Shown piece by piece: positions 38,612 to 54,258 of a stretch of DNA of 64,000 bases. The stretch is from Phyllobacterium zundukense (GTDB lineage: Bacteria; Pseudomonadota; Alphaproteobacteria; Rhizobiales; Rhizobiaceae): NCBI RefSeq assembly GCF_002764115.1, contig NZ_CP017941.1, forward strand, positions 1-64,000, in the 5' to 3' direction. The notes beneath the pieces are model-generated. The model saw only the letters and a list, made by a program, of their open reading frames with translations, was not told where the DNA came from and made no database searches. A program made the translations under genes and the position numbers. The stretch's first letter is position 1; every line of letters starts with the position of its first letter.

Positions 38612-40258
38612 TCAGAAATCCATGTCGTGATGATGATCGTGATCGTGATCGTGACCAGGAAGCGTTGGCGGCGGTGGGCCCGGCAGTTCCGCCACCATGG
38701 CTTCCGTCATGATGAGGAGGCCCGCCACCGAGGCCGCGCCCTGGAGCGTCGTACGCACCACCTTGGCCGGGTCGATGATGCCCTTCGACACCAGATCCCC
38801 GTACTCGCCAGATTGGGCATCGTAGCCATAGGCCATGTTGTCGTTTTCGAGGATGTTGGCGATGACGACCGAGCCTTCAACGCCGGCATTGTTCGCGATC
38901 TGCCGGGCCGGCCAGGTGATTGCCTTCCTGACGATCGCGATGCCGGCGTTCTGGTCAGAGTTGCCGCCCTCGAGCTTCTTGAGCGCCTTGCCGGCGCGCA
39001 ACAAGGCGACCCCACCGCCCGGGAGAATGCCCTCCTCGACCGCGGCTCTGGTCGCATTCATCGCGTCATCGATGCGATCCTTCTTCTCCCTGACCTCGAC
39101 TTCGGTGGCGCCGCCGACGCGGATCACGGCGACGCCGCCAGCGAGCCTCGCCAGCCGCTCCTGGAGCTTCTCGCGGTCGTAATCGGAGGTGGTTTCCGCA
39201 AGTTGGAGCTTAATCTCGGCGATGCGGGCCTCGATGCTTGCCTTCTTGCCGGCGCCGCCGACGATCGTGGTGTTTCCCTTGTCGATCATCACCTTCTTGG
39301 TGCGCCCGAGCGCATCGAGGGAAACGTTCTCGAGCTTGAGGCCGAGATCCTCGGAGATCACCGTTCCGCCCGTCATCAGCGCCATGTCCTGCAGCATCGC
39401 CTTGCGGCTGTCTCCGTAGGCCGGTGCCTTCACGGCGGCAACCTTGAGACTGCCGCGCAACTTGTTGACCACCAGCGCCGCCATCACCTCGCCCTCGACA
39501 TCCTCGGCAATGATGAGCAGTGGCTTGGCGGCCTGAACCACCTTATCGAGCAGCGGCAGTATTTCGTTCAGGCTGGACAATTTCTTCTCGCTGATGAGAA
39601 TATAGGCATCCTGCATGTCGACCCGCATCTTGGCGCGGTTGGTAATGAAGTAAGGGGAAATGTAGCCGCGGTCGAACTGCATGCCCTCGACGACCTCGAG
39701 TTCGGTCTCGAGCGACGTCCCGTCCTCGACGGTGATCACGCCGTCGCTGCCGACCCTCTTCATGGCTTCGGCAAGGTGGCGGCCGATCTCAGTGTCGCCG
39801 TTAGCCGAGATGGTGCCGACTTGTGCAATCTCGACGTTCGAGATGACTTTCCTGGCGTTCTTCTTGAGCTCCGCGACGACGGCTTCGACCGCAAGATCGA
39901 TGCCGCGCTTCAAGTCCATGGGATTCATGCCGGCGGCCACCGCCTTGGCACCCTCCCTGACGATCGCATGAGCGAGCACGATCGCGGTCGTCGTGCCGTC
40001 GCCAGCCTGATAAGAGGTCTTGGAGGCGATCTCGCGCACCAGTTGGGCGCCCATATTCTCGTATCTGTTGTCGAGTTCGATTTCTTTGGCGACGGTCACG
40101 CCATCCTTGCTGACCCGCGGTGTAACGAACGACCTTTCGATTGCGACGTTGCGTCCCCTGGGGCCAAGTGTGACCCTCACCGCACTCGCTAGGGTGTCGA
40201 TACCACGCAACATTCTGTCGCGAGCATCGAACGAGAATTTGATTTCCTTGGCAGCCAT
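38612..40258 (-). CDS. groEL: Chaperonin GroEL paralogue with His/Asp-rich tail
   Basis: 548 aa 60-kDa chaperonin. Intact ATP-site and hinge segments: [55 protein letters not shown], and GGGVALLRA late. Differences from housekeeping Gro[13 protein letters not shown] for the usual TNDIAGDG, and a C-terminus [14 protein letters not shown] in place of the Gly-Gly-Met repeat. No groES nearby. It follows hemA and sco1 on the same strand (56-base gap), pointing to folding of metalloenzymes, with a possible metal-binding tail. Confidence 0.93.
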
Positions 40259-40314: not shown

Positions 40315-41583
40315 TCATTCGGCCACGTAAGCGAGATTGTCGCGTGGCAGCCCGAGCCGATTCCAGACATCGACCAGAGCCGCGGCAAGCCGATCGATCA
40401 TGATGTCCTCATGGCAGGGTGTCGGCGTGATGCGCAGCCGCTCGGTTCCCTTCGCCACGGTCGGATAATTGATCGGCTGGATATAGATACCGTACTCGCT
40501 CAGCAGAAGGTCGCTTGCCGCCTTGCACTGCGTCGGATCGCCGACCGCCACCGGAATGATATGGGTGTCGCTGAGCATGACCGGCAGGCCCGCCGCGCCC
40601 AGCACCGCCCTAACTCGTCGGGCGCGATCCTGCTGGCGCTTGCGCTCCTCCTCAGAGGTTTTCAGATGCCGGATCGCCGCCGTGGCGGCGGCGCAGATCG
40701 CCGGTGGCAATGCGGTCGTGAAGATGAAACCCGGAGCATAGGAACGGACCGCATCGATCAGCACAGCGCTTGCTGTGATATAGCCGCCGAGGCAGCCGAA
40801 GGCCTTGGCGAGCGTGCCTTCAATCACGTCAATCCGGTTCATGGCGCCGTCGCGCGCGGCCAGTCCGGCGCCCCGAGGGCCGTACATGCCCACCGCATGG
40901 ACCTCGTCGAGATAGGTCATGGCGCCGTAACGGTCGGCAATATCGCAAATGCGATTGATTGGCGCAATGTCGCCGCCCATCGAATAGAGACTTTCGAAGA
41001 CGATGAGTTTCGGCCGATCCGGATCCGCCGTCTTCAACAATTCCTCAAGATGATCGGCATCGTTGTGGCGGAAGATGCATTTCTCCATGCCGGACTGGCG
41101 GATGCCCTCGATCATCGAATTGTGGTTGAGAGCATCGGACAGGATCAAACAATCGGGGACCAGCCTGGCGATGGTCGAGATGCCGGTCTGGTTCGAAACA
41201 TAGCCGGACGTGAAGACCAGCGCCGCCTCCTTGCCGTGGAGATCGGCAAGCTCTCCCTCGAGTTCGACCAGCGGATGATTGGTGCCGGCAATGTTGCGCG
41301 TACCGCCGGCCCCGGTCCCCATCCGGGTCGCCGCTTCGACCATGGCCGCGACGACTTTCGGGTGCTGTCCCATCCCAAGATAGTCGTTGGAGCACCAGAT
41401 GACGACGTCCTTCGGTCCTTGCGGGGAGTGCCACACGGCGTAGGGAAAGCGGCCTGCGATCCGCTCGAGGTCCGCGAAGACCCGGTAGCGCCGCTCCTCC
41501 TGCAGCTGCGCGATGGCGTCGGCGAAGAACCTATCATAACCCGGGAGGCCGGCCTCCCGGGAGTGCCATCGGCTATCGCTCAT
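40315..41583 (-). CDS. hemA: 5-aminolevulinate synthase
   Basis: 422 aa PLP enzyme condensing glycine and succinyl-CoA to 5-aminolevulinate, the first haem step in alphaproteobacteria. Seen: [43 protein letters not shown] and PLP Lys in [14 protein letters not shown]. Probably a second copy supplying haem for the oxidase cluster, since the chromosomal gene would lie elsewhere. A start with GGGGGGAG close upstream. Confidence 0.93.
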
Positions 41584-41691: not shown

Positions 41692-42309
41692 TCATTCATC
41701 GGACTGCGCCATGATTTTGCGCAGCGTGTCGGCAATGCGACCAGCCGGCGTGTCGGAATCCAAGCCTCGCACGAATTTGCCCTGAATATCCATGATGTAA
41801 ATGTAAGTACTGTGGTCGACGGTGTAATCTTCAACGCCGGCTCCCGTTTTGTGGCGCGCGCTGTAGGCGCCATATTCCCGCGCAACCGCGGCGATCTGCT
41901 GCGGGCTGCCGGTGAGTCCGATGATCCGTGGATCGAACGCCCCGGTGTATTTGCCCATCACTTCGGGCGTGTCGCGTTCAGGATCGACGGTGATGAAGAT
42001 CGGTTGTAGTCTTGCGGCGTCGGGGCCAAGTTCCTCAAGCGCCGCGTCAATTTCGTACAGTGTCGTCGGACAGATGTCGGGACAAGAAGTATAGCCGAAG
42101 AAAACCAGCAGCCATTTGCCGCGATACGTCGCATCGGTGACGGTCGTTCCGTCCGGCGCCGTGAGCGTGAATGGGCCGCCGACCGTCACAGGCGCCGTGC
42201 CAGCCCACGCCGGCGGTTGGAAAACCGACAAGGCCGCGGCAACTATGAGGCAGAAGAGGGCATGGGGACAATGAGCCCAGGGGCGGAGGAGTCCATACCG
42301 TCGCTTCAT
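41692..42309 (-). CDS. SCO1/SenC copper chaperone
   Basis: 205 aa with an N-terminal hydrophobic export/anchor segment. Thioredoxin-like fold with copper ligands CPDIC in GYTSCPDICPTTL and the distal His in VDHSTYIYI. Delivers copper to, or reduces, the CuB/CuA site of haem-copper oxidases in the periplasm. ATG 42309 is preceded by GGAGG; longer upstream frames overlap the divergent gene. First of a leftward set with hemA and groEL. Confidence 0.93.
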   Translation of the reverse strand: MKRRYGLLRPWAHCPHALFCLIVAAALSVFQPPAWAGTAPVTVGGPFTLTAPDGTTVTDATYRGKWLLVFFGYTSCPDICPTTLYEIDAALEELGPDAARLQPIFITVDPERDTPEVMGKYTGAFDPRIIGLTGSPQQIAAVAREYGAYSARHKTGAGVEDYTVDHSTYIYIMDIQGKFVRGLDSDTPAGRIADTLRKIMAQSDE

Positions 42310-42474: not shown

Positions 42475-42501
42475 ATGATCCCCTCGGAGGAGGTGTCGTC
42501 G

Positions 42502-43218
42502 ATGAAGACGATCAATTGGATCAGCGGGCTCGCGGTGATCGTTTTCGCTGCAACGATGTCTGCGCCTGCGCAAGCCTACGAAGTGAGTCCGGTCACAGGA
42601 GGCGGAACGATCGAGGGTACGATCGTCTACCGCGGCGATGTACCGACAACAAAGATCATCCCCACCAAGGATGTCGAAGTGTGCGGAGCACCCCGCGAAG
42701 ACCCACTGATCCGGGTCGGCACCGATCAAGCCGTTGAGAGTGCAGTCGTGTATTTGGTCGAGGTGGCCAAGGGAAAGGCCTGGGCAGAGCCCGGCAAGCC
42801 GCCTGAGCTTAACAACATCAAATGCCGCTTCGACCCTCAGGTTCAGGTGATACCGGCCGGTTCGCTGGTGGTTGTCAACAGCGATCCAATGCTCCACAAC
42901 ACCCACGGATATTATGGCAAGCGCACTGCCTTCAACCTGGCGCTGCCCAACCAGGGACAGCGCATACCCGTCGAATTGAATCGTGCCGGCGCTGTCCGCA
43001 TCGACTGCGACGCGCATGGGTGGATGGAAGGCTGGGTCTATGTGGTGGACAATCCTTACTACGCGATCACCGGCGCCGATGGCAAGTTCAGTATCCCCGA
43101 TGTACCGCCCGGCAATTACACGCTCGTGGCGATCCACCCCCTGACCGGACCCATCGAGCAGCCCGTAACGGTAGCGGAAAGTCAGCCCACCAGTCTGACA
43201 ATTGAACTGAAAAAATAA
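42502..43218 (+). CDS. Periplasmic cupredoxin-like / carboxypeptidase regulatory-like protein
   Basis: 238 aa. Signal peptide in residues 1-26 (cleavage after APAQA). Middle domain has a plastocyanin-like copper pattern: NSDPMLHNTHGYYG, then DCDAHGWMEGWVYV, offering His, Cys, His and Met. The C-terminal 55 residues form a transthyretin-like carboxypeptidase regulatory domain (DGKFSIPDVPPGNYTL). ATG 42502 follows GGAGGAGG. Likely a copper electron carrier for the adjoining oxidase. Confidence 0.75.
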   Translation: MKTINWISGLAVIVFAATMSAPAQAYEVSPVTGGGTIEGTIVYRGDVPTTKIIPTKDVEVCGAPREDPLIRVGTDQAVESAVVYLVEVAKGKAWAEPGKPPELNNIKCRFDPQVQVIPAGSLVVVNSDPMLHNTHGYYGKRTAFNLALPNQGQRIPVELNRAGAVRIDCDAHGWMEGWVYVVDNPYYAITGADGKFSIPDVPPGNYTLVAIHPLTGPIEQPVTVAESQPTSLTIELKK

Positions 43219-43226
43219 GAAAATGG

Positions 43227-43252
43227 GCGACCCACTGACCCAACAGGGTCGC
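43227..43252 (+). other. Intergenic hairpin
   Basis: GCGACCC and GGGTCGC form a perfect 7-bp stem with a 12-base loop between the cupredoxin-like and metallophosphoesterase genes. No T-run follows, so it more likely affects mRNA processing or stability than termination. Confidence 0.4.
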
Positions 43253-43308
43253 GTTCCTATGAAAAGACCGACGCTTTAAGAAACGGTCTGCACTGAGGAG
43301 GAACTCTG

Positions 43309-44445
43309 ATGTCCGACGAGCTTGACCGCATTCGGCGCGAAATGCATGCGGTGCTGCAGCAACCTGGGGTACGCCCCGACGACTCGCTCAAACTCACCCG
43401 TCGCACCTTCATTCACAGATCGCTGCTGTTCGGCGCCGTTTCCGTCGGCCAGACCTTCGCGTGGTGGCCGCTGCTCAACACCATCGACGTCGCTCACGCC
43501 GCCGAAGCGCCCTTCAAGTTTGCCTGGATTTCGGACACCCACCTTTACGAGAGATCCCTCAATACGCGCTTCGTCGACAAGGTGGTGCGCGCCGTGCAAG
43601 AGGTCCAGGCCATGGATCCACCTGCCGACTTTTTGATCTTTGGTGGCGACCTGGCCCAGCTCGGAAAGATTGAGGAACTCGAGCTCGGCGTCGAGCTCCT
43701 CAAGGATCTGTCGATCAAGAAGTATTACATTCCGGGTGAGCACGACTGGTATCTGGATATGGGCAAGAAGTGGGGCGAGCTGTTCGGCCAGCCCAACTGG
43801 ACCTTCGACCACAAGGGCGTGCGCTTCATCGGGCTCGATACGGTCAGCCGGGGTCCGGACTACTGGACAGTGAAGAAGATGACACCGGAGGAGCGCATGG
43901 GCCATATGGCGACCCTCGACGGCACGGTTGCCGGCGCGTGGGCCGGCGTCGGCCGCGACCAGCTCGACTGGATGCAGAAGACACTCGCCGACTGGGATAA
44001 GTCCAAACCGATCGTCATCTTCAGCCATAATCCGCTCTACGAGTACTACCCGCCCTGGAACTTCTGGGTGCGCGACTGGCGCGAAGTGAACGAGGTGCTG
44101 AAGCCATATACCAAGGTCACCAACATCCACGGTCACGTCCACCAGGTGCTCTATAACGAGATCGGCAGCATGCGCTCGATCGGCATGCTGGCGACCTCCT
44201 GGCCGTGGCCCTATGCCCCGGAAGGCGTACCCAAGCTGACCAAGCCGATGATCCGGGTCGACCCCGGCGATCACTTCGATGGGGTCGGCTGGGAAACCGT
44301 GAACGTGAACGCCGACGACAGGGTCGACGTCGAGTACATCATGTGGGGGCGCAAGGAGGTTTTCGTTCAATCGGACCCGGATTCCTCGTTGAGTCAACCT
44401 GAGAAGTTGCGGCCGCGCATGGCGGACAATATGTGGCCATACTAA
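43309..44445 (+). CDS. Tat-exported metallophosphoesterase
   Basis: 378 aa. Twin-arginine signal TRRTFIHRSLLFG within residues 30-55. Calcineurin-like motifs in order: DTHLYE, FGGDLAQ, GEHDWY (where most relatives have GNHD), FSHNPLY and HGHVHQ. Glu replacing the metal-bridging Asn is a notable change. Exported folded, probably to the periplasm. Its place between a cupredoxin and a cytochrome c, rather than phosphate genes, suggests an unexpected role in the respiratory cluster. Confidence 0.82.
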   Translation: MSDELDRIRREMHAVLQQPGVRPDDSLKLTRRTFIHRSLLFGAVSVGQTFAWWPLLNTIDVAHAAEAPFKFAWISDTHLYERSLNTRFVDKVVRAVQEVQAMDPPADFLIFGGDLAQLGKIEELELGVELLKDLSIKKYYIPGEHDWYLDMGKKWGELFGQPNWTFDHKGVRFIGLDTVSRGPDYWTVKKMTPEERMGHMATLDGTVAGAWAGVGRDQLDWMQKTLADWDKSKPIVIFSHNPLYEYYPPWNFWVRDWREVNEVLKPYTKVTNIHGHVHQVLYNEIGSMRSIGMLATSWPWPYAPEGVPKLTKPMIRVDPGDHFDGVGWETVNVNADDRVDVEYIMWGRKEVFVQSDPDSSLSQPEKLRPRMADNMWPY

Positions 44446-44458
44446 GGGAGGAATGGCT

Positions 44459-44923
44459 ATGACAATCAGAGCGACATTTCTCGGCGTTTTGTGCCGTCCG
44501 TCCCTCGCCGGTGCGATTGCGACGGTCGCCGTCCTCGTCGGCCCCACCAGTGCCCACAAGGCACCGCACAAACCGGAGCAGTTGAAACTGTACGAAGATG
44601 TGTTCATGGAGGAGGTCAGGAAGGGCGACCTCTTGTTCCACGGCGATGCAGCAACCGCCAAACAGATGAACGTCGTCCTCTCCACCACGGGAATGGCCTG
44701 CGCAATGTGCCATCCCATGGCCTCCGACACCCACCCGCAGTCCTACCCGAAATTCCAGATAGAAATAAGCAAATTTTCGACGCTACGCGACATGATCAAC
44801 TGGTGCATCGAGAAACCCAATCAGGGCGAAAAGATCGATCTCGATTCGGAAGCGATGAAGGCTTTGGAAGCGTACATCCACTGGTCAAACGCCGGCTCGG
44901 TATTGGTCCCTGGCAAGCATTAG
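44459..44923 (+). CDS. Periplasmic monohaem c-type cytochrome
   Basis: 154 aa from ATG 44459 (GGGAGG 6 bases upstream; an ATG at 44453 is too close to it). Signal peptide to about residue 33. One haem motif CAMCH followed by P and M, with surrounding IHWSNAG near the C-terminus. The layout resembles sulfur-oxidation type cytochromes, but no subgroup is certain. Likely shuttles electrons to the CcoN/CcoO oxidase encoded next. Confidence 0.82.
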   Translation: MTIRATFLGVLCRPSLAGAIATVAVLVGPTSAHKAPHKPEQLKLYEDVFMEEVRKGDLLFHGDAATAKQMNVVLSTTGMACAMCHPMASDTHPQSYPKFQIEISKFSTLRDMINWCIEKPNQGEKIDLDSEAMKALEAYIHWSNAGSVLVPGKH

Positions 44924-45080
44924 TTTTTTTCGGTTTGGCGCGGCTGCATAGAAGACGACTTGCGCCGGAAGCAATCTGAAACCGGCGACTGGCATTGGGT
45001 GGTTCCCGGTGCCGGTGAAGTTTGGAGTTGAGTGCTGAAGAGTCGCGCGGCTCAAGCGCGCGTGATGGGAGGGGCACGCC

Positions 45081-46514
45081 GTGGCAGAAACATTGCGTGG
45101 CAGATTCGCCGGCGTCGACCTAGATGATCTGGTCGATTGGCCGGTCGTGCGAACTTGGCTTTATTGGGGCATGTTCTGGCTCCTGGTCGCACCTTCCGTC
45201 GGCGTGGCGCTGTCGGGACTTTTCAACTATCCCGATTACCTCGGCACCACCTTGGGATTGACCTTCGGCAGGTTGCGCCCGGTCCACGTCAACGGCGTCA
45301 TCTTTGGCGCCTTTTCCTCCCTCTTCATCGGCGAATGCTATTACCTGGTGCCGCGCCTTTGCGGTGTGCGGGTGCCATGGCCGCAATGGGGGGTACCGTT
45401 GGCCTGGCTGTGGAATGTCACCGTGGCGGCTGCGCTTATCGCATTGCCGTTCGGCGCAAATCACGGCCTCGAAGCGGGCGAGTTCCCGCTGTTCGCCAAA
45501 ATCCCGATCTTTCTCGTTGTTGCCGTGGCGACCGCACAATTCCTGATAGCCATCTCCCGGCGCCTCGAGGCGCCGCTCTATGTCGCACTCTGGTACCTGA
45601 TCGGGGCTTTCGTGTGGACGACGATGAATCTCGTACTGGGCATCATCCTGCCCTACACGATCTCAGGCATCAACAGCGCGGCCTTCCACGGCCTCTACAT
45701 TCACTACATCGTCGGACTGTGGATCACGCCGGCGGGCTACGTGCTCATCTACTACTTCTTGCCGATCAGCGTGCGCAATCCGATCTATGGCCACAAGCTC
45801 TCGCTCGTCGGCTTCTGGTCCCTCGCCCTGTTCTACCCCTTCGTCGGCATCCATCATTATCTCTACAGCCCGATCGCCGATTGGGCCGAGACAATCGCGA
45901 TCGTCACGTCCATGCTGCTGATCATTCCGGTGTGGACGGTGCTGGTGAACTTCTTCGGCACCGTGAAGGGCCGCTGGGACGCCTTCGGAAAGAACCTCCC
46001 GGCCAAGTTTCTGATCATGGGCTCGCTCATGTATCTGGTGGGATGTTTCCAGGGCTCGACCGAGGCCTTGCGCTCGATCCAGCAACCGACCCATTTCACG
46101 GATTTCGTCATCTCGCACTCGCACCTCACAGTGTTCGGAACGTTCGTGGTCTGGGCAATGGGCGGCCTGGTTTATGTCTGGCCGCGGGCCTGCGGGCGCG
46201 AGCTTTGGTCGTTCACGATGGGCAATTGGGCATTTTGGCTGATCACCGTCGGTATCTCCACCATGGGCCTGGTGCTGACTGCCGCTGGACTGCAGCAAGG
46301 CTTCCAGTGGATGGCCGGCACCGAATGGCTCGACACGGTGCTCTCGATGCGACCCTATTGGTTGGTGCGTACCGTCGGCGGCATCAGTATGGACATTGGA
46401 ATGTCGCTTCTCGTCATTGATCTGATGATGACGGCGCTGACCCGGCCCGCCGAAACTGTGGGCGGTCGGGCATTCGGTGCGCCAGCGGTTCCAGCTGGTA
46501 GGGCAGCCCGATGA
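45081..46514 (+). CDS. ccoN: cbb3-like cytochrome c oxidase subunit I
   Basis: 477 aa, about twelve hydrophobic segments. Haem/copper ligands: LRPVHVNGV (low-spin haem His), AFHGLYIHY (CuB His), VGIHHYLYSP (His pair) and ISHSHLTVFG (haem His pair). Family placement as cbb3-like rests on these and on the CcoO partner; spacing differs from standard FixN, so it is probably a divergent subfamily. GTG start with GGAGGGG 6 bases upstream. Overlaps the next gene by 4 bases. Confidence 0.88.
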   Translation: MAETLRGRFAGVDLDDLVDWPVVRTWLYWGMFWLLVAPSVGVALSGLFNYPDYLGTTLGLTFGRLRPVHVNGVIFGAFSSLFIGECYYLVPRLCGVRVPWPQWGVPLAWLWNVTVAAALIALPFGANHGLEAGEFPLFAKIPIFLVVAVATAQFLIAISRRLEAPLYVALWYLIGAFVWTTMNLVLGIILPYTISGINSAAFHGLYIHYIVGLWITPAGYVLIYYFLPISVRNPIYGHKLSLVGFWSLALFYPFVGIHHYLYSPIADWAETIAIVTSMLLIIPVWTVLVNFFGTVKGRWDAFGKNLPAKFLIMGSLMYLVGCFQGSTEALRSIQQPTHFTDFVISHSHLTVFGTFVVWAMGGLVYVWPRACGRELWSFTMGNWAFWLITVGISTMGLVLTAAGLQQGFQWMAGTEWLDTVLSMRPYWLVRTVGGISMDIGMSLLVIDLMMTALTRPAETVGGRAFGAPAVPAGRAAR

Positions 46515-48196
46515 GCGCGCGATTCGTTACCCTGGTGGCCGGCATCTTTTTCTTCTTCGCCGCGGTCGTCACCCAGGGCTTCCTGCCATTTTTCGAACCT
46601 TCGGCGCGAACAAGCCGGGTGACCGCCGTGGTCCGCACCGATTTCGGCCAGCTCAAATGGATGATGACCGAGGCCACCGATTACACGCCGCTGCAACAGC
46701 TCGGTCGCGACGTGTATCTGCGAGAAGGTTGCTGGTATTGTCATTCCCAGTACGTGCGTCCGGTGACCGGCGAGACGCGCCGCTGGGGTCCGGTGACCGA
46801 GTCAGGCGAGTTCGCTTACGACGTGCCGCACTTGTTCGGCACACGGCGCATCGGACCGGATCTGATGCGGGTCGGACTTAAGTTCAGCGACGAGTGGCAT
46901 CTTGCCCATTTCTGGAATCCACGCATGCTCTCCCCGGATTCGATCATGGCGCCGTATCGCGGACTGTTCGAGGAGCCGGCGCAGCCGGTCGCAATCATCG
47001 ACGACGGAGCCGGCAATCGTACGCTGGAAAGAACGCAGGTCACCGAACGGCTGTTCGACTTCGCCAGTCAGGAACGGATCCAGCTTACGCCGAACGCTGA
47101 CGGGCTCCTGTTCGTCCCGCTGGAGGCGAGCAGCAAGGTTCCAGTCATTGTCATCCCGAACGAGGAATACAAAGGCGGCGCGGTCAAGATCGCCGCCGAG
47201 ACGAAAGACCTGGAAGGTCTCATCGCCTATGTCCAGAAGCTCGGCATGAATCGCGGCAAGTGGCGCGACCTGTTCGAGCCGCAGCAACTTGAAGTCATGG
47301 ACGCGACGATGCCGCGCTCAAGCGAATGGATCGCGCGTGGCAAGGAGGTCTATGAGCGGCGGTGCCTCGGCTGCCACGGGATAGCGGGCGACGGCAACGG
47401 GCCCGCGGCGACCTTCATGTTCAATCAGCGCCCGCGAAGTTTCGCTGCGGCGGTGTTCAAGTTCCGGCTGACCAAGGAGCCGCTGCCGACTGACGGTGAC
47501 CTCTTGCGCACGATCACTCGCGGAGTTCGCGGCACGGCGATGCCCGCTTGGTACGACCTGCCGCTCAACGATAGGCTCGCGGTCATTCAATACATCAAGT
47601 ATGAGCTGGCGGTGGACCGCTCCGACCCGGCCGAGCCCTATGCGTTCTTCGTCGAGGAGCCGCCCGGTGCTCCTTTGTACATCGCAAAACCGCCCGAGGC
47701 TTCCCAGCAAATCCTCGACCGCGGCAAGGAAGTCTGGCAGGTCGCCAAATGCTGGGAGTGCCATGGCATGACCGGAAAGGGCGACGGCGAGAAAGCCGCC
47801 GGGCTGAAGGATGATCTCGGTTTTGGCATTGTGCCGGCCGACCTCACTAGTGGCCAGTTCAAGTCAGGGGCAACGGTCGAAGACATTTTTCGGACCATGA
47901 CGACTGGGATGAGCGGCACGCCCATGCCCTCCTACCGAGACTCGTTGCCCGAGGAGGACCGCTGGGCGCTCTCCTATTACGTTCTCGCACTTTCCGCCTA
48001 CAAAGACCCGCTCACATTGCAAACGCTGACGATCAGCGACACGGATCGCGCGGCGCTTAATGATCTGACGCTGGAGGCAGATTCCCCGGCGAAGGCCTAT
48101 GTTCCAGGCACGGACCCGGCGCAGAAGGCTTCCGAACTCGATGAAGGTAACGGGGGGCCGGTGACCGGCAAACGAAATACTACCGAAGGAGGCTGA
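46511..48196 (+). CDS. ccoO: Fused CcoO with two extra cytochrome c domains
   Basis: 561 aa, membrane-anchored by an N-terminal helix (FVTLVAGIFFFFAAVV). Residues 60-150 are a CcoO domain with haem motif CWYCH in EGCWYCHSQYVRPV. Two further cytochrome c domains follow with CLGCH (near 288) and CWECH (near 415), each with a late Met-type region (TAMPAW, GTPMPSY). Standard cbb3 keeps the one-haem CcoO and two-haem CcoP separate; here the likely equivalents are joined, so the operon lacks a separate ccoP. Confidence 0.9.
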   Translation: MSARFVTLVAGIFFFFAAVVTQGFLPFFEPSARTSRVTAVVRTDFGQLKWMMTEATDYTPLQQLGRDVYLREGCWYCHSQYVRPVTGETRRWGPVTESGEFAYDVPHLFGTRRIGPDLMRVGLKFSDEWHLAHFWNPRMLSPDSIMAPYRGLFEEPAQPVAIIDDGAGNRTLERTQVTERLFDFASQERIQLTPNADGLLFVPLEASSKVPVIVIPNEEYKGGAVKIAAETKDLEGLIAYVQKLGMNRGKWRDLFEPQQLEVMDATMPRSSEWIARGKEVYERRCLGCHGIAGDGNGPAATFMFNQRPRSFAAAVFKFRLTKEPLPTDGDLLRTITRGVRGTAMPAWYDLPLNDRLAVIQYIKYELAVDRSDPAEPYAFFVEEPPGAPLYIAKPPEASQQILDRGKEVWQVAKCWECHGMTGKGDGEKAAGLKDDLGFGIVPADLTSGQFKSGATVEDIFRTMTTGMSGTPMPSYRDSLPEEDRWALSYYVLALSAYKDPLTLQTLTISDTDRAALNDLTLEADSPAKAYVPGTDPAQKASELDEGNGGPVTGKRNTTEGG

Positions 48197-48199
48197 GTT

Positions 48200-48376
48200 A
48201 TGCTCGGATTTGAGATCACCGGACCTTATGCGGGCGCCATGTTGATGAGCCTTGGTGCGCTTTGCGTCTTCGTTTGGGGCGTGCTCTCAGGCGCCTTCCA
48301 CGGCGCCGATGACGCGGCCATCAGATTCTACGAAAGGGAAGTGGAAAATGACAACGCCAAGCACACCGGAGAATGA
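48200..48376 (+). CDS. CcoS-like small membrane protein
   Basis: 58 aa. One membrane helix (AMLMSLGALCVFVWGVLSG) followed by FHGADDAAIRFYE, matching the layout of cbb3 assembly protein CcoS (helix, then Gly-x-x-Asp-Asp and an aromatic segment). AAGGAGG precedes ATG 48200. Overlaps the next small gene by 29 bases. CcoS is linked to cofactor insertion into cbb3 oxidase. Confidence 0.7.
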   Translation: MLGFEITGPYAGAMLMSLGALCVFVWGVLSGAFHGADDAAIRFYEREVENDNAKHTGE

Positions 48377-48557
48377 CGGCTCGGATCAAGGTTCGGACCA
48401 CGACCACGAGCTGGAGGAGTATGCCGGCGGTACCATCCAGGCTCGACACGGGTATCTCCCGGTATGGCTCCTGGTCGTCTACGCGGTTCTTTTCATCTGG
48501 GGGCTCTATTACGCCTACCATTATTGGGGCGGGGTCGGGCCGGGACGGATCGGTTAG
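48348..48557 (+). CDS. Small single-pass membrane protein, oxidase-associated
   Basis: 69 aa from ATG 48348. A soluble acidic/His N-terminus (DQGSDHDHELEEYAGG) leads to one helix WLLVVYAVLFIWGLYYAYH. Resembles the membrane anchor that begins CcoP, so it may supply the anchor lacking in the fused CcoO. The HDHE segment could bind metal. Confidence 0.65.
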   Translation: MTTPSTPENDGSDQGSDHDHELEEYAGGTIQARHGYLPVWLLVVYAVLFIWGLYYAYHYWGGVGPGRIG

Positions 48558-48611
48558 GAAGCACAGTCGCGCACGCTAGGATGGCTGACGAGTTGAGAGA
48601 GGAAGCAGGAG

Positions 48612-48710
48612 ATGCTGGTAGCTAAGATACTAATGGGAGTTGCGATTCTGAATCTTTTCCTGCTGCTCGCCGCGCTCGCCATGAACGTTGCCCTTGTTTA
48701 TTTCGGCTGA
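48612..48710 (+). CDS. Tiny membrane peptide (32 aa)
   Basis: Almost entirely one hydrophobic helix (ILMGVAILNLFLLLAALAM) with a short N-terminus. AGGA lies upstream of ATG 48612. Oxidase operons often contain such subunits (CcoQ-like). Called from position, ribosome site and composition; no family recognised. Confidence 0.55.
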   Translation: MLVAKILMGVAILNLFLLLAALAMNVALVYFG

Positions 48711-48724
48711 CCAGGAGGAGGCCT

Positions 48725-48847
48725 ATGCTTGAGGATACCGTTTTCTCGTTCGCAAATGCGAGTCCGTACCAAACGATCGCCTTTATCGGCGGCGCGATAG
48801 CGCACATCGCCTTCTTCGTATGGGTGGCTTACCTCGTGCGCAAATAG
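48725..48847 (+). CDS. Tiny membrane peptide (40 aa)
   Basis: AGGAGG starts 10-11 bases before ATG 48725. Sequence runs from MLEDTVFSFANASPYQ into a single helix AFIGGAIAHIAFFVWVAYL ending in RK. No family recognised; probably an oxidase accessory subunit, translated with its neighbours. Confidence 0.55.
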   Translation: MLEDTVFSFANASPYQTIAFIGGAIAHIAFFVWVAYLVRK

Positions 48848-48903
48848 CGGCGCGGAACAACACTTTTCGTTGAATGAGCGGCGCATCGACAGGAGGTCTG
48901 CCT

Positions 48904-49632
48904 ATGACCTATTACCTCATGATCTTCGCCGCTGGGTTCGCGGGCAGCTTTCACTGCATCGGCATGTGCGGCGGCTTTGCCTGCGCGCTTGGCCGCGATC
49001 AGCAAGGGGGCGGCGCAACCGTACTTCGCCACCTATTCTATAATACCGGCCGATTGACAACGTATTGCTTTGTGGGCGGGCTCGCGGGCGCCCTCGGTCA
49101 GGTCATCTGCACCACGCAAGATTCAATGGCCGCGCCGCTCTTGGACGGCTCCCTCGACATCGCCCAGCGAATTCTCGCGATTGTCGCTGGCCTGCTCATG
49201 ATTGCCATGGCGTTGCAGTTCTTCGGCTTGCTGCAGGTCTTTCATCGCCTGGCGATCGGATTCGGCGGCAGCACGTTTGCGATGTCCCTGCGCAGTCTGA
49301 TGACAGCCCGAAGCAGCACTGCGCCGCTCGCCTTTGGCGTGTTCAACGGCTTCCTGCCATGTCCGCTGGTCTATGCCTTCGCCGCCCAGGCGGCAAGCAC
49401 CGCCGGAGCGCTTCCCGGCTTTCTCGTCATGGCGTCGTTCGGACTGGGAACCTTTCCCGCAATGTTGATGATGGGCGGCGTCGGCCAGGTTCTTCGGCCA
49501 GCCTGGCGGCAGCGCGGCGTCCGGTTGGCCGGCGGCTTTATTCTTTTGCTCGGCCTCATCACGCTCGGCCGTGGTCTGCTGCCCTCGGACGTTCATATCG
49601 GCCATGCCTGGCTGGGAGGACTTCCCGCATGA
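48904..49632 (+). CDS. Sulfite exporter TauE/SafE-type (DsbD-like) membrane protein
   Basis: 242 aa, six or more hydrophobic segments. Paired motifs FHCIGMCGGFACALG near the start and FNGFLPCPLVYAF mid-protein give Cys/Pro pairs as in the CcoH-type copper/thiol transporters found beside cbb3 operons. Annotated as sulfite exporter by family, but here copper handling or thiol transfer for oxidase assembly is likelier. ATG 48904 follows AGGAGG; the stop overlaps the ATPase start (ATGA). Confidence 0.82.
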   Translation: MTYYLMIFAAGFAGSFHCIGMCGGFACALGRDQQGGGATVLRHLFYNTGRLTTYCFVGGLAGALGQVICTTQDSMAAPLLDGSLDIAQRILAIVAGLLMIAMALQFFGLLQVFHRLAIGFGGSTFAMSLRSLMTARSSTAPLAFGVFNGFLPCPLVYAFAAQAASTAGALPGFLVMASFGLGTFPAMLMMGGVGQVLRPAWRQRGVRLAGGFILLLGLITLGRGLLPSDVHIGHAWLGGLPA

Positions 49633-51815
49633 CCGCGTGTGACAATATCCTGTGCAGCCATTGTCTGTTGCCCATCGGCCTGCGCCCGATGGAGCGCAGG
49701 ATCAACGGCGAGGCTTGCGCGTTCTGCTGCTATGGCTGTTGTATCGCCTTTCAGGTGAAGAACGGCAGACACGAAGAGTGGGAGGCCGCCTGGCTTCTGA
49801 TTCAGCTCGGCGTGGGCGGCTTTCTCTCCATGAATATCATGATGTTCAGCCTCCTTCTCTATTCGGACGCATTCACCGGCGTCGATGCGGGCGTGCTGCC
49901 GTGGATTCACCTTTTGCTCTGGATCTTCGCGACGCCAGCGGTGGTGATCCTCGGCGGACCCTATCTGCGCGAAATGTGGCTCAATGGCATTCAGGGACGC
50001 GTGACATCGTCAGCCCTCATCGTGCTTGGCGTCGCTGCCTCCTATCTCTATTCGGCATTTGCCGCGTTCGAGGGCAGCACGCACGTCTATTTCGACACCG
50101 CCGTGATGGTGCTGATGCTGTTCACCGTTGGCCGCTATCTCGAGGCTGTTGGCCGCGCCAGGGCGGCGCGCGACCTCGAACCGCTCCTGGCCGCCGAAAG
50201 CGAGAGCGCAACTGTTGTCGATGGCGCGGCAGAGACTCTCCGCCCGGTGCGGGAGGTGAAGGCGGGCATGCTGGTGCGGGTCCGGCCCGGCGACCGCATT
50301 CCGGTCGACGGCGTGGTTGTCGAGGGAGAATCGGACACCGATGAAGCCGTGATCACCGGAGAAAGCCGGCAAGTGACAAAGGGCGCCGGCTCCACGGTGA
50401 TTGCCGGCAGTATCAATATCGACGGCCCGCTCCTGATCCAGAGCAGCGGTGATGGAACCGCAACGCGCTGGGCACAGATTTGCCGGTCGGTGCGCGAAGC
50501 GCTGGGCCGTCGCAGTCCAACCCAGCGCCTTGCCGACCGCGTCGTTGGCGTGTCCGTGCCCCTCGTTCTCGCCCTCGGCGGGCTGACAATCGTTTACTGG
50601 GCGCAGTCATTGCCGTTCGATCGGGCGTTGCTGATTGGCCTCTCGGTGCTGGTGGTTGCCTGTCCTTGCGCCGCCGGCCTCGCCGCTCCAATGGCGACAT
50701 CGCTCGGCATCGGCCGGCTGGCGCGGCACGGCTGCCTCGTCCGCGACCCCGGCGTGCTCGAGAGCCTCGCGCATGTGCGGTTGCTCGCCTTCGACAAGAC
50801 CGGCACTTTGACGGCGGGCAAAGCGCGTCTCGTCGGCATCGACCGCGACGGGGTCGGCATCGACGATGTGCTGGCACGCGCCGCCGGTCTGGAGCGCCAT
50901 TCCGAACATGGATTAGCGCTGGCAATCGCAGCGGCAGCCGCTGCGCGCGGCATCACCCCGCTCGCGACCCGTGATGTCCGGACGGTTCCCGGCCGTGGCA
51001 TCCGCGGCAGCGCAAACGACGAGCCCGTGGCCGCGGGGAGCGTGAGATTGATGAATGATCTGGGCTGGCCGCTTCCCTCGGCGCTGGTTGAGCGTGCGCG
51101 GTCGCGCGAGGCGAGCGGTCATTCGCTGGTCTATGTCGCTTGGGGCGAGCGGGTCCGTGCCATGCTGTCGCTTGACGATTCGCCGCTTCCCGAGGCGCAG
51201 GCGACCATTGCGGCACTTCGTGAGCGCGGGCTCGACGTTGCGCTATTGACCGGCGACCTGGCACCGGCGGCGGAGCGGATCGCGGCCATGGTCGGGATCC
51301 AGGCCGTGCATGCGGGTCTTTCGCCCGAGGCCAAATGGGAGGTCCTCGGCGGACTCCGGCACGGCCACGATGTAGTGGCGATGGTCGGCGATGGCCTCAA
51401 TGACGGGCCGGTGCTCGGCGCCGCCGATGTCGGCATCGCCGTCGGCTCGGCCACCGATCTCGCCCGCGAGACTGCGGCAATCGTGCTGCCCGCGGACGGA
51501 TTGTGGATGCTGCCCTGGGTCGTCGACGTGGCCCGCGCGGTCCGCAGGACCATTTTAACCAACCTCATGTGGGCGTTCGGCTACAACCTCGTCGCGCTCA
51601 CTTTCGCGGCCCTCGGATTGCTACAGCCGATCCTGGCGGCGGCAGTCATGGCCGGATCGAGCATCCTCGTGGTGATGAATTCGCTGAGACTGGAACGGCT
51701 GCCTGATCCAGTTCCATCGCCGATCGCGCAACAGCAATCCGGCGCCGAGGCGGACAGCGCCCGCCAGGGCGCCGGCACTTCCGTCTTGGCCGGCCCGGCC
51801 GTCGAGCGGAGTTGA
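49629..51815 (+). CDS. ccoI: Copper-translocating P1B-type ATPase (CcoI-like)
   Basis: 728 aa. Cys-rich N-terminal metal site (LCSHC and FCCYGCC), then eight-helix layout. Phosphorylation DKTGT in LLAFDKTGTLTAG, ion-pathway CPCAAGLA, TGES and GDGLNDGPVLG hinge. The classic cbb3 copper supplier CcoI has CPCALALA-type text; CPCAAGLA is a close variant. Delivers copper outward for CuB assembly. Long upstream frame in the same phase (from 49065) is unrelated to the family. Convergent with soxF, 8 bases away. Confidence 0.93.
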   Translation: MTACDNILCSHCLLPIGLRPMERRINGEACAFCCYGCCIAFQVKNGRHEEWEAAWLLIQLGVGGFLSMNIMMFSLLLYSDAFTGVDAGVLPWIHLLLWIFATPAVVILGGPYLREMWLNGIQGRVTSSALIVLGVAASYLYSAFAAFEGSTHVYFDTAVMVLMLFTVGRYLEAVGRARAARDLEPLLAAESESATVVDGAAETLRPVREVKAGMLVRVRPGDRIPVDGVVVEGESDTDEAVITGESRQVTKGAGSTVIAGSINIDGPLLIQSSGDGTATRWAQICRSVREALGRRSPTQRLADRVVGVSVPLVLALGGLTIVYWAQSLPFDRALLIGLSVLVVACPCAAGLAAPMATSLGIGRLARHGCLVRDPGVLESLAHVRLLAFDKTGTLTAGKARLVGIDRDGVGIDDVLARAAGLERHSEHGLALAIAAAAAARGITPLATRDVRTVPGRGIRGSANDEPVAAGSVRLMNDLGWPLPSALVERARSREASGHSLVYVAWGERVRAMLSLDDSPLPEAQATIAALRERGLDVALLTGDLAPAAERIAAMVGIQAVHAGLSPEAKWEVLGGLRHGHDVVAMVGDGLNDGPVLGAADVGIAVGSATDLARETAAIVLPADGLWMLPWVVDVARAVRRTILTNLMWAFGYNLVALTFAALGLLQPILAAAVMAGSSILVVMNSLRLERLPDPVPSPIAQQQSGAEADSARQGAGTSVLAGPAVERS

Positions 51816-51823
51816 GTTTCGCT

Positions 51824-53092
51824 TCAGCCAAACACGTCGTGCGTGAAGGCGTCATACCAGCCTTCCGCCGCGCGCGCCGCCTGGCGGCGGATCTCGGCGC
51901 TTTCCTCGACCTTGCTGACGAAGCTCAGGACGCTCTTGAGCTTCCCTTCCACAGGCTTGAAGCTGATGGCGTTGCTGAACGCATCGTCGGGGGCGAGATA
52001 AGTGTAGCAAGTGTTGAATAAATGCGCCGGAAATTGTGCTGATCCGGTGAGATCGGCCGCGATGGCAAAGGCGCAGGCTTTGGCCTGGCTGTTGGCGCAG
52101 AAGGCGGATTTCGGCATATCTCCGCCGATGATCGCGTCGCCGACCAGATGGACGCCGGGCTGCAGCGCCGATTCGAAGGTGACCGGATCGACCGGACACC
52201 AGCCCGACTGGTTATCGAGGCCTGCCTGCTGCGCCAGGCGCCCGGCCATTTGCGCCGGGATGACATTGGCGACCGCGGCCTTGAATGTTTCGCCCGCGGT
52301 GATCACTGATCGGGTCTTCGCGTCGACCGCTTTGACCCCACCGGTGAATTGGGCCGGCAGCCACTCGATCATTCCCGGATAGTGGCGGTTCCAGGCGTCC
52401 TGGAACAGGTCCTGCGCAGTGAAGCTGTCCTTCGCATCGAGGATCAGAATCTTGGCCTTGGGTTTGCTGCGCTGGAAATAGGACGCGATGAGCGAAGCGC
52501 GCTCGTAGGGGGCGGGCGGACAGCGAAGCGGATTCGGCGGAACGACGAGCACGAAAAGCCCGCCGTCCTCCATGCTTTCCAGTTGCTGGCGCAACAGCCT
52601 GGTTTGCGGCCCTGCATTCCAGGCGTGCGGCATGATCTCCATCGCCACTTCATCATAGCCCTCAAGCGCCCGATCCCTGAATGCGATGCCCGGCGCAACA
52701 ACCAGACGGTCGTAGCTAAGCTTCGAACCGTTGTTCAGCGCCACGGTCTTCGCCGCCGGGTCAATCGCTTCGGCGGACTCATGAACGACGGTGATGCCGT
52801 ATTGTTTTGTCAGCGCATCATAACCATGGTTGAGCGATTCGAGCGAGCGAAGCCCGGCGAGATAAAGGTTGCTGAAGAAGCAGGTCGTGTAGATCCGCCG
52901 CGGCTCGACCAGGGTCACGTCGATGGCCGTGGCGCTGGCGGCGAGATATCTGGCGACCGTTGCGCCGCCGATGCCGCCGCCGATCACAACGACACGCGCC
53001 TTGGCCTGGCCCAGCGCCGCCGGCGGTCCGAGCGCTGTCAGCAACGCTGCTCCAGTCAAGCAGCCGAACTCGCGACGCGTCCAGGATTTCAT
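51824..53092 (-). CDS. soxF: Flavocytochrome c sulfide dehydrogenase flavoprotein (SoxF/FccB)
   Basis: 422 aa. Tat signal RREFGCLTGAALL, then FAD fold VVIGGGIGGATVARYL. Covalent-flavin Cys in TCFFSNLY near residue 70, and the redox disulfide pair in PLRCPPAPYE and SAFCANSQAK. Oxidises sulfide and passes electrons to the cytochrome partner encoded just upstream in the same direction. With SoxYZ beside it, SoxF is the better name than a free-standing FccB. Confidence 0.9.
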   Translation of the reverse strand: MKSWTRREFGCLTGAALLTALGPPAALGQAKARVVVIGGGIGGATVARYLAASATAIDVTLVEPRRIYTTCFFSNLYLAGLRSLESLNHGYDALTKQYGITVVHESAEAIDPAAKTVALNNGSKLSYDRLVVAPGIAFRDRALEGYDEVAMEIMPHAWNAGPQTRLLRQQLESMEDGGLFVLVVPPNPLRCPPAPYERASLIASYFQRSKPKAKILILDAKDSFTAQDLFQDAWNRHYPGMIEWLPAQFTGGVKAVDAKTRSVITAGETFKAAVANVIPAQMAGRLAQQAGLDNQSGWCPVDPVTFESALQPGVHLVGDAIIGGDMPKSAFCANSQAKACAFAIAADLTGSAQFPAHLFNTCYTYLAPDDAFSNAISFKPVEGKLKSVLSFVSKVEESAEIRRQAARAAEGWYDAFTHDVFG

Positions 53093-53098
53093 GGCGAG

Positions 53099-53449
53099 TT
53101 ACTTTCCCTGCGCTGCGACATAGCGCGCGACGCTCGCGATCTCCTCGTCGCTGAGCGAGAGCGCGATAGCGTGCATGATGTGATTTGGACTCTCGCTCGC
53201 CCGGTAGGCAAGCAGGGCACTCGTGAGCTTCTCCTCACCGAGCCCGATTATGGTGGGGATACCCGTGCCGGCGCCGTCGAGGCGATGGCAGGAAGCGCAG
53301 GTCGCGGCGAGCTGCGCCCCTCGGTCGATGTCTTGCGCGCTGCTACGATCCGCACCGAGACCGGCCAAGGTCGCGGTGATCGCCAGCGCAATAATCTGGC
53401 GCATCCGCTGCGCGCCAAGGAAACTGAGAGGTGTCCGTCGCACAGCCAT
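53099..53449 (-). CDS. soxE: Cytochrome c subunit of sulfide dehydrogenase (SoxE/FccA)
   Basis: Small cytochrome c with haem motif CASCH in CASCHRLDGAGTG and a signal peptide cleaved about SSAQD. Electron acceptor for SoxF. ATG 53449 lies right at the soxZ stop (53452); a later ATG (53404, MRQIIALAIT) also gives a normal signal peptide and may be the real start. The gene lies between soxZ and soxF. Confidence 0.85.
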   Translation of the reverse strand: MAVRRTPLSFLGAQRMRQIIALAITATLAGLGADRSSAQDIDRGAQLAATCASCHRLDGAGTGIPTIIGLGEEKLTSALLAYRASESPNHIMHAIALSLSDEEIASVARYVAAQGK

Positions 53450-53451
53450 GA

Positions 53452-53778
53452 TCAAGTGACCGTGAGCTGGTGCGATAACGCATAGATGGCGCCGCCATCT
53501 TCTTCCCAGAGGAAATCGAGCCGGCCGCTCTCCGTCGCCCGCAGGGAGAATTCGATGAACGGATTGGCGGCAATTGCCTCGTGAAGATCGACGCTGAACA
53601 CCACGGCATCGTTACAGCGGCAGACAAACTTGTTGATGATTTTGCGCGGAATCACATCGCCTTGATCATCGCGGCGCAGCCCTGTTTCCATCTCATGGCT
53701 GATGATGGTCTTGACCTGAAAAACGTCGCCCTTCGCCGCAGCGCTTGGTACGACCACGCGTGGTGTGGGGGTGATCAC
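53452..53778 (-). CDS. soxZ: Thiosulfate-oxidation carrier subunit SoxZ
   Basis: 108 aa all-beta partner of SoxY. Seen: KTIISHEMETGLRRD (the family HxMETG motif), IPRKIINKFVC and ISFSLRATESG-like text near the C-terminus (EFSLRATESGRLDF). Length is normal. Forms the SoxYZ heterodimer that holds the sulfur substrate. Confidence 0.92.
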   Translation of the reverse strand: MITPTPRVVVPSAAAKGDVFQVKTIISHEMETGLRRDDQGDVIPRKIINKFVCRCNDAVVFSVDLHEAIAANPFIEFSLRATESGRLDFLWEEDGGAIYALSHQLTVT

Positions 53779-53799
53779 TGTCCGCCTCCCTCCCGGATG

Positions 53800-54258
53800 T
53801 CAGGCGCAGCCATTGGTGGCGACGTGGACCCAGGTCTTTGTCATGAGCAATGTGCCATCATTCATCTCGGCAACCGCCACGACGTATTGTGGTTTGGCAA
53901 GGCGGATGCGCGTCGACACGCGAGCTAGACTGCGTTGCGGAACGAAATGGAAACTGGCGACTTCGATAAGCGGGTTCTGCGGCGCGAACACACGGATTTG
54001 CCTCACATGGTCGGTCTCGGTCATGGGGCTGTCGATGTCAAGGCTCATGGGCACGGTGTATCCGGTTGGGAAGACCGCCGGCATTATTAGGTGAAGGCGA
54101 TCCGACTCCGTGGCCGTCCGCCCGGTGAGCTGTTTGACGAGTTCCAGCGCTTCATCGCTCGGACGCGCGGCCTGCGGCGAAAGGAGCACGACACCGGCAA
54201 ATCCTGCACTCCCCGCATAGCCGGCGGCGATCAATACATCGCGGCGCGTCAAGCTCAT
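53800..54258 (-). CDS. soxY: Sulfur-carrier subunit SoxY with non-standard C-terminus
   Basis: 152 aa. Tat signal LTRRDVLIAAGYAGS. Fold segments PMSLDIDSPMTETDHVR and ALLMTKTW-like (GTLLMTKTWVHV). Most SoxY proteins end GGCGG, the Cys being the sulfur attachment point; this one ends TNGCA, so a Cys is third... second from the end but without the flexible Gly tail. ATG 54258 follows AGGA. First gene of the leftward sox set. Confidence 0.85.
   Translation of the reverse strand: MSLTRRDVLIAAGYAGSAGFAGVVLLSPQAARPSDEALELVKQLTGRTATESDRLHLIMPAVFPTGYTVPMSLDIDSPMTETDHVRQIRVFAPQNPLIEVASFHFVPQRSLARVSTRIRLAKPQYVVAVAEMNDGTLLMTKTWVHVATNGCA

Follow-up and report, generated by a model that had tools for sequence, protein, structure and literature searches.

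The closest described relatives of the gene cluster reported here are the canonical cbb3 oxidases (ccoNOQP/fixNOQP) on the one hand, and the Sox system together with flavocytochrome c sulfide dehydrogenase (FCSD) on the other. The cluster lies in the first 64,000 nucleotides of contig NZ_CP017941.1 of Phyllobacterium zundukense; this whole stretch is called the window below, and opens contig C2 of a genome of six contigs and 6.2 Mb (G000). With canonical cbb3 the module shares a C-family subunit I with the same histidine ligands and cross-link tyrosine position, a CcoO domain, and a CcoI-type ATPase, a SafE-like protein and Sco encoded in the cluster. Unlike canonical cbb3, its CcoN belongs to a separate clade, the CcoN, CcoO and CcoP scores fall below cut-off, a dihaem cytochrome is fused to CcoO, and four miniature subunits, HemA, GroEL, a cupredoxin (Cup), a metallophosphoesterase (MPE) and Sox proteins are encoded alongside. 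With the Sox system and FCSD it has in common a true SoxZ, a SoxY domain and a full FCSD flavoprotein, whereas the arm of its SoxY has NGC or DGC and a single further residue at its end, instead of GGCGG or AACTE, and no match to SoxB, SoxA or SoxC in the genome of the window reaches the cut-off.

We think that the cluster is probably a horizontally moved, self-provisioned C-family O2 reductase, which in most of the carriers compared is fed by sulfide or carrier-bound sulfur. At its heart CcoN, a three-haem fusion of CcoO with a dihaem cytochrome (CcoO3) and four tiny membrane subunits would reduce O2, with copper delivered by Sco, CcoI and a DsbD/SafE-like protein, haem precursor by HemA, and with a His-tailed GroEL that is presumed to bind metal. 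Electrons would enter on the periplasmic side through the amicyanin-like Cup and small cytochromes, and for most of the Rhizobiales carriers compared, as for SAR324, the donors would include FCSD and a SoxYZ whose arm is short and of the NGC/DGC type. Sulfide or SoxY-bound sulfur would thus be oxidised and the electrons passed through FccA, Cup and the small cytochrome cytA to the CcoO haems and on to O2. Since this route is without SoxB, SoxXA and SoxCD, it would not provide complete thiosulfate oxidation. The conserved unit, at about 38612-54258, comprises the following genes, with the number of loci in which each is linked among 32 compared (see below):

38612..40258, minus strand: GroEL paralogue with a Pro/His-rich C-terminal tail (22/32 loci)
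40315..41583, minus strand: HemA-type 5-aminolevulinate synthase, for haem precursor supply (Pfam Aminotran_1_2, 6.1e-74; 21/32 loci)
41692..42309, minus strand: Sco1/SenC copper chaperone (PF02630, 3e-51; 24/32 loci)
42475..43218, plus strand: Cup, amicyanin-like type-1 copper cupredoxin with a carboxypeptidase-regulatory-like domain (31/32 loci)
43309..44445, plus strand: Tat-type secreted MPE with GEHD replacing GNHD (PF00149, 5.2e-13; 29/32 loci, partial in L029)
44453..44923, plus strand: cytA, small monohaem cytochrome of SoxA/TsdA type (PF21342, 5.4e-10; 28/32 loci)
45081..46514, plus strand: divergent CcoN, C-family haem-copper oxidase subunit I (Pfam COX1, 3e-67)
46511..48196, plus strand: CcoO3, CcoO fused to dihaem cytochrome c, with three CxxCH motifs (FixO and two cytochrome c domains)
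48200..48376, plus strand: miniature membrane protein m1, 58 aa (30/32 loci)
48348..48557, plus strand: miniature membrane protein m2, 69 aa, C-terminus GGVGPGRIG (31/32 loci)
48612..48710, plus strand: miniature membrane protein m3, 32 aa (similar open reading frame in 22/24 loci bearing m4)
48725..48847, plus strand: miniature membrane protein m4, 40 aa (24 loci at E 1e-3; 22/32 at E 1e-4)
48874..49632, plus strand: DsbD2, a DsbD_2 or TauE/SafE-like membrane protein (PF13386, 1.3e-44; 31/32 loci)
49629..51815, plus strand: CcoI/CopA2-type copper P-type ATPase (PF00122, 5e-45; 31/32 loci)
51824..53092, minus strand: FccB/SoxF, FCSD flavoprotein (FCSD 5n1t, 4.5e-117; 24/32 loci)
53099..53455, minus strand: FccA/SoxE-like monohaem cytochrome c (PF00034, 9.1e-9; 23/32 loci)
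53452..53778, minus strand: SoxZ (TIGR04490 SoxZ_true, 88 bits, cut-off 76; 25/32 loci)
53800..54258, minus strand: SoxY variant with C-terminal arm ...TNGCA (PF13501, 3.3e-28; 24/32 loci)

Sco on the minus strand diverges from Cup, the genes from Cup to CcoI form a run on the plus strand, and FccB-FccA-SoxZ-SoxY are convergent with that run; the four-base overlaps of CcoN with CcoO and of DsbD2 with CcoI are operon-like. An earlier sequence-only reading of this DNA had named a divergent CcoN, a CcoO with two further cytochrome c domains, four miniature membrane proteins, a copper supply (Sco1, CcoI, SafE-like) and SoxY-Z-E-F on the facing strand (51824-54258), all of which are present according to Pfam and NCBIfam matches and open reading frames. 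It had missed the conserved Cup, MPE and cytA between Sco and CcoN and the HemA and GroEL genes beyond Sco, and the conserved unit is accordingly wider than the stretch first noted.

A scan of genome contigs with CcoN yielded 23 loci, found in Mesorhizobium, Bradyrhizobium, Microvirga, Sinorhizobium, Rhizobium, metagenome-assembled genomes (MAGs), Thiocapsa, an Ectothiorhodospiraceae MAG, SAR324 and Scalindua. The fused CcoO was detected in 38 of 72,556 plasmid records (34 from Sinorhizobium and 4 from Rhizobium), among them Sinorhizobium megaplasmids, pSymA of S. meliloti Rm41 and plasmids of strains BL225C and SM11. With the genome of the window included in each count, carriers amount to 1 of 20 genomes of the genus, 4 of 297 sampled across the order and 2 of 398 sampled across the phylum, a rare and patchy spread that fits horizontal transfer. 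The 32 loci compared (the 23 plus six plasmid and three genome stretches, the ends of which lie at differing distances) were selected by CcoN or CcoO similarity, so that the occurrence of this pair in 32/32 is uninformative, and they are not independent, since six Mesorhizobium and four S. meliloti loci are included. Genes were counted in them at hand-set identity floors (GroEL 60%, HemA 50%, FccA 40%, Sco 33%, Cup 30%, others 28%), with fragments scored as present for HemA in L019, L030 and L038 (fragments or broken frames), MPE in L029 and Sco in L016. L038, on pSymA of S. meliloti R11, has several module genes in broken frames, which may be due to sequencing error. For residue conservation the protein of the window was aligned with 19 of 29 CcoN, 17 of 29 CcoO3, 16 of 27 MPE, 16 of 26 cytA and 17 of 28 Cup copies.

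SoxZ adjoins the oxidase in 25 of the 32 loci, through rearrangements; L094, which ends just before its SoxY (seen just beyond the end), is not among the 25. The linkage of oxidase and Sox genes noticed in the sequence-only reading thus recurs among relatives. At least six arrangements were found, the first being the gene order of the window. In Bradyrhizobium GroEL lies past SoxY, in Microvirga Cup-MPE-cytA is inverted and Sco and HemA are swapped, in S. meliloti the Sox block has been relocated upstream of the oxidase side but is still inside the cluster, and in L014 Cup-MPE is inverted. The SAR324 locus has the order CcoI-SoxY-SoxZ-Sco-FccB, with transhydrogenase genes (AlaDh_PNT, PNTB) between these and the oxidase, from which all five are at most about 10 kb away; its CcoI, just outside the stretch compared, is 51% identical. 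That the gene set stays together across six arrangements is strong evidence of joint function, and the module is not a chance gathering, because both its proteins and their neighbourhood are conserved across many genomes.

CcoN is called divergent because its score against the NCBIfam ccoN equivalog TIGR00780 (211 bits) is far under the cut-off of 583; ccoO (131 bits, cut-off 201) and ccoP (48 bits, cut-off 180) are also sub-cut-off, and the module is therefore not filed as canonical cbb3. Residues H69, H208, Y252, H258, H259, H346 and H348 are invariant in all 20 aligned rows and coincide with those of 3mk7, in which we take the histidines to be the haem and CuB ligands and the Tyr252 position to be that of the cross-link tyrosine. 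In nitric oxide reductases of the cNOR type, a glutamate ligand of FeB is located four residues past the helix VI histidine. At the place four residues after His208, CcoN has an invariant glycine (Gly212, 20/20) and not the cNOR-type glutamate, and by its motifs it would have a C-family, O2-type active site. In a tree of 43 proteins, with 15 of 30 fetched canonical loci used, no A-family sequences included and only a midpoint root, the module CcoN forms a single clade (23 rows, support 100/99) separate from the 15 canonical CcoN (100/100). The same tree contains a separate divergent group (L088, L089, L091 and L095) and a singleton, L090, placed with the module side on a long branch. CcoN of the L088/L089/L091/L095 type scores 226-249 bits to TIGR00780 and accounts for 17 matches besides G112, four of which are in the tree. 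L090 represents another oxidase adjoining haem-synthesis genes: its divergent CcoN is 34% identical to that of the window, it has its own three-domain CcoO fusion (8529-14286), and hemC- and hemE-type genes lie beside it.

CcoO3 has CxxCH motifs at residues 74, 285 and 414, and 27 of the 29 other copies have three as well; the exceptions (L020 and L038) are short or broken frames. In profile comparisons positions 57-157 match 3mk7_B (cbb3 CcoO) and positions 272-495 match 6h5l_B (E 2.9e-56), a protein named 'Conserved hypothetical cytochrome protein' in the PDB listing and presumably acting as redox partner to an HAO-like protein of Kuenenia; the two-haem domain is common to both, and in the module it is fused to CcoO. 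A plain CcoP fusion was rejected as the weaker match (8.4e-13 for the whole protein against CcoP). The three-haem CcoO described in the sequence-only reading was thus borne out, with the correction that its fused part is closer to 6h5l_B than to CcoP and that the fusion is not specific to the module, as FixO with two cytochrome c domains is also found in Scalindua (L031) and in the more distant L090 cluster. Together, CcoN and CcoO3 appear from their sequences to constitute a distinct C-family (cbb3-like) subfamily that would reduce O2. The genome of the window has no second TIGR00780 match at E 1e-40; two COX1-family genes elsewhere in it score higher than the module CcoN.

On the sulfur side, the RCPP..YE and TCY cysteines of FccB align with those of FCSD (5n1t), and both PF21706 and PF09242 are matched; FccB is, on this sequence evidence, a full FCSD flavoprotein with redox cysteines. 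FCSD oxidises sulfide. SoxY falls under both NCBIfam SoxY cut-offs (88.7 bits vs. 125 for the GGCGG-arm model). The arm of the window protein closes with NGC and a single further residue, as do those of 18 of 23 other copies; four copies, from Mesorhizobium, have DGC and one more residue there, and the remaining copy is the broken frame of L038. By contrast, SoxY paralogues in Bradyrhizobium-type genomes end in GGCGG and AACTE, and that of Thiocapsa in GGCGG. The SAR324 SoxY ends in LNGCKED and clusters with the module SoxY clade (support 82/80, long branches) in a tree from which two fused SoxYZ were excluded. A second SoxY-family gene in the genome of the window (G000:C3:278636-278962) is apparently of the fused SoxYZ type.

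In the genome of the window the best SoxB match reaches 143.5 bits (cut-off 550), the only SoxA match is the module cytA (29.3 bits, cut-off 110) and SoxC reaches 47.5 bits (cut-off 420); SoxX and SoxD were not searched. The claim of the sequence-only reading that SoxB, SoxXA and SoxCD are absent holds for SoxB, SoxA and SoxC as sub-cut-off matches and needs qualification for SoxA, as cytA, a SoxA/TsdA-type cytochrome without the catalytic arginine, belongs to the oxidase side of the module. Among eight other carriers checked for SoxB, three have it above the cut-off (G194, G676 and G674). In G161 and G677 SoxB, SoxA and SoxC are all below cut-off, and the sole SoxY match in each is the module SoxY. 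Because SoxB is sub-cut-off in G000, G161 and G677, the module SoxYZ has to function without it in these three genomes at least, SoxX and SoxD being unsearched there.

The predicted electron carrier Cup has the residues His141, Cys178, His181 and Met184 (Cys-x2-His-x2-Met) invariant in 18/18 aligned rows, and its AF2 model (pLDDT 89.3) gives amicyanin 1id2 as the first Foldseek match (E 3.8e-6). With a His-Cys-His-Met quartet and a modelled cupredoxin fold, it is predicted to bind type-1 copper. The only locus without Cup is L029, whose stretch begins 0.9 kb upstream of CcoN.

Several findings weigh against a sulfur-fed oxidase. Six of the 32 loci (L020, L025, L027, L029, L031 and L092, with Thiocapsa and Scalindua among them) have the oxidase without linked SoxYZ, so sulfur is not the sole possible donor, and L023 and L024 carry SoxYZ with no FccAB within the stretch. 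The little-described pairing of a fused oxidase with a reduced Sox set that the sequence-only reading had proposed is therefore recurrent, and no prior account of it was found, yet it is not obligatory. The SAR324 genome (G675) has a SoxB-like gene (413 bits, sub-cut-off) adjoining a second SoxY. No known function fits MPE, although it is among the best-conserved proteins of the module. Its residues D76, H78, D114, E144, H145, H240, H276 and H278 and an RRxFxHxS motif are invariant in 17/17 rows and give the pattern of a dinuclear site, in which Glu takes the place of the customary Asn (GEHD in 17/17; GNHD is the usual metallophosphoesterase motif), and it also bears the near-invariant stretch YEYYPPWNFWVRDW. 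MPE was rejected as SoxB, since its model, which is of low confidence (pLDDT 58.8), has GpdQ and Rv0805 as nearest neighbours and SoxB only at rank 42 (E 0.018).

The function of cytA and the regulation of the module are further such points. In cytA the CxxCH motif and Cys118 are invariant in 17/17 rows, SoxA 1h31, by its first domain, is the top PDB match, and Cys118 aligns with the haem-ligand cysteine of SoxA/TsdA, so that it is a predicted ligand. Met114 (17/17) replaces the arginine that is invariant in catalytic SoxA/TsdA (Arg in 0/17), and a catalytic SoxA was therefore rejected; cytA is more likely, by sequence, to be an electron carrier than a thiosulfate-conjugating enzyme. Compared with the SoxA/TsdA cytochromes in the accessible part of Grabarczyk et al. 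2015 (PMC4423706), cytA has the cytochrome domain and the haem-ligand Cys position, and differs in its single haem, in Met at the equivalent of Arg119 and in having no conserved Arg at the equivalent of Arg109. An exact FixK/FNR-type box (TTGA-N6-TCAA) occurs once in the window, at 14987, against 1.07 expected, and TTGATN4ATCAA with up to two mismatches 20 times against 25.6 expected. In the window and 27 further loci there is no exact box 5' of Cup, Sco, CcoN, SoxY, cytA, GroEL or HemA, FccB not having been checked. Microaerobic regulation of this type is thus unsupported. L093 has no exact box, L094 has one, inside MPE, and SAR324 (L026) has two, one of which, at 20314, is about 220 bp upstream of FccB.

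The loci without SoxYZ bear on the explanation that the cluster is a general low-oxygen oxidase, a new C-family subfamily with interchangeable donors, in which SoxYZ-FccAB hitch-hikes or is one optional donor cassette and whose purpose is not sulfur. We regard this as somewhat unlikely. A core of Cup-CcoN-CcoO3-DsbD2-CcoI without MPE, cytA or SoxYZ is found in L020, L031 and L092 (the list for L020 being incomplete, as its contig ends 3.4 kb upstream of CcoN), with other cytochromes c upstream of the oxidase in L020 and L031 and a Cox11/CtaG-like protein (6816-7748) between Cup and CcoN in L092, at the place of MPE and cytA. The oxidase and Cup look like a core onto which donor cassettes fit. 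The lack of another ccoN match in the genome of the window counts for a general oxidase as well as for a sulfur-fed one. Against this explanation speak the linkage of SoxZ in 25/32 loci over rearrangements that extend to SAR324, and its confinement to loci with MPE (25 of 29 vs. 0 of 3 without, with L094 counted as lacking SoxZ).

HemA, GroEL, Sco, CcoI and the SafE-like protein together suggest a dedicated haem-copper assembly kit, in which the first two would serve the oxidase; the S. meliloti module copies of the synthase gene are annotated hemA. In the module GroEL the GGM repeats are replaced by a tail with PPPP or similar, PGH and a His/Asp-rich end (PPPP..PGH-D-H...). Among 21 further copies, L009 is cut off and the 20 readable ones all have 3-6 His among the last 20 residues. 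In a control with five genomes the module copies have 4-6 His (5/5) and the other readable copies 0-1 (15/15), with three of 23 loci unreadable. According to the accessible sections of Rola et al. 2023 (PMC10170517), peptides of the His-rich tail of mycobacterial GroEL1 bind Cu(II). The likeness to that GroEL1, as far as those sections describe it, is a His-rich tail in place of a GGM tail, whereas the module GroEL lies in an oxidase cluster, has a PPPPxLPGH-type tail and is, by sequence and analogy, presumably metal-binding.

The Cu(II)-binding tail peptides, the many copper parts (Sco, CcoI, SafE-like, Cup and the His-tailed GroEL) and the generally known oxidation of sulfide by FCSD could also point to an island for copper handling or sulfide detoxification, with energy conservation secondary. 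This is improbable, since Sco, CcoI and the SafE-like protein are the expected assembly factors of cbb3 and the CcoN-CcoO pair is present in 32/32 loci, though the loci were selected on that pair.

An alternative complete thiosulfate pathway, with MPE standing in for SoxB and cytA for SoxXA around an NGC-type SoxYZ, is highly improbable. It would draw on the common superfamily of MPE and SoxB, the SoxA-type domain and cysteine of cytA, the restriction of SoxZ to MPE-bearing loci and the sub-cut-off SoxB, SoxA and SoxC of G000, G161 and G677; it is opposed by the greater closeness of MPE to GpdQ than to SoxB, by the missing catalytic arginine of cytA and by Thiocapsa (G674), in which MPE and cytA accompany only a GGCGG-type SoxY, the sole one there, and a true SoxB. 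There is very little chance that CcoN is a nitric oxide reductase or an NO-detoxifying enzyme with the Sox part as reductant, an identity rejected on the sequence motifs: its divergence, a weak match to NorB (4xyd) and a fused dihaem that resembles the partner of a Kuenenia HAO-like protein (6h5l_B) are outweighed by Tyr252 and Gly212, both 20/20, and by 170.8 bits to cbb3 CcoN vs. 31.1 bits to NorB.

If the sulfur-fed O2 reductase is real, some nodule bacteria own a mobile lithotrophic add-on, located on large plasmids or chromosomes, and sulfide, which around roots is a signal and a toxin, could serve them as an energy source. The module would further provide an oxidase subfamily that can be tested and that has exchanged its donors during evolution, a SoxYZ that does without SoxB in three or more genomes, and a GroEL, linked to an oxidase, with its folding tail turned into a probable metal tail. 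Only tentatively can this be extended to a mobile, self-contained sulfide-to-O2 machine with its own 5-aminolevulinate synthase, metal-binding chaperonin and copper kit, in which NGC-armed SoxYZ and FCSD turn over SoxY-bound sulfur without SoxB, and with which rhizobia including Rm41 might respire plant or soil sulfide at low O2 by means of a sulfide-tolerant oxidase. Because S. meliloti Rm41 carries the module, gene removal is feasible in a laboratory strain.

The module is real, conserved, patchily spread and apparently undescribed as a whole; in searches of open-licensed PMC literature aimed at the module and its parts it was found only in separate pieces and not as a single unit. In the available text of Sugawara et al. 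2013 (PMC4053727), soxYZEF-like genes are listed for 7 of 33 S. meliloti and 2 of 2 S. fredii strains, and a separate table gives hemA2 in three and four S. meliloti strains, up to seven (3+4). For AK83 and BL225C a hemA homologue is given in the accessible part of Galardini et al. 2011 (PMC3164228). These are very probably parts of the module seen apart. The passages concerned in PMC4053727 file the genes separately under sulfur oxidation and haem biosynthesis and mention no oxidase or shared module; its main text, as far as available, contains no word beginning 'oxidase', and the available parts of PMC6431628 and PMC4287430 have nothing on the module oxidase.

Adjoining SoxY is an operon at 55598-59730 encoding an ABC ATPase, an FtsX-type permease and an AttH-like protein (the last two named by eye), homologues of which are also near the module in Sinorhizobium L017, L019 and L039. 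Transposase and integrase-core genes flank the module at 22219-23157, 33954-34850 and 54733-55500, as do apparent broken transposase frames, identified by eye. The G+C content is about 48-59% in the left half of the window and rises to about 59-68% across the module. Just outside the module are genes for a HipA-type protein (35423-36730) and a DUF892 protein (37987-38499), and the region 131-21150 contains polysaccharide and sugar-nucleotide genes, including those for a GDP-mannose dehydratase, glycosyltransferases, a C-methyltransferase and an ABC-2 exporter.

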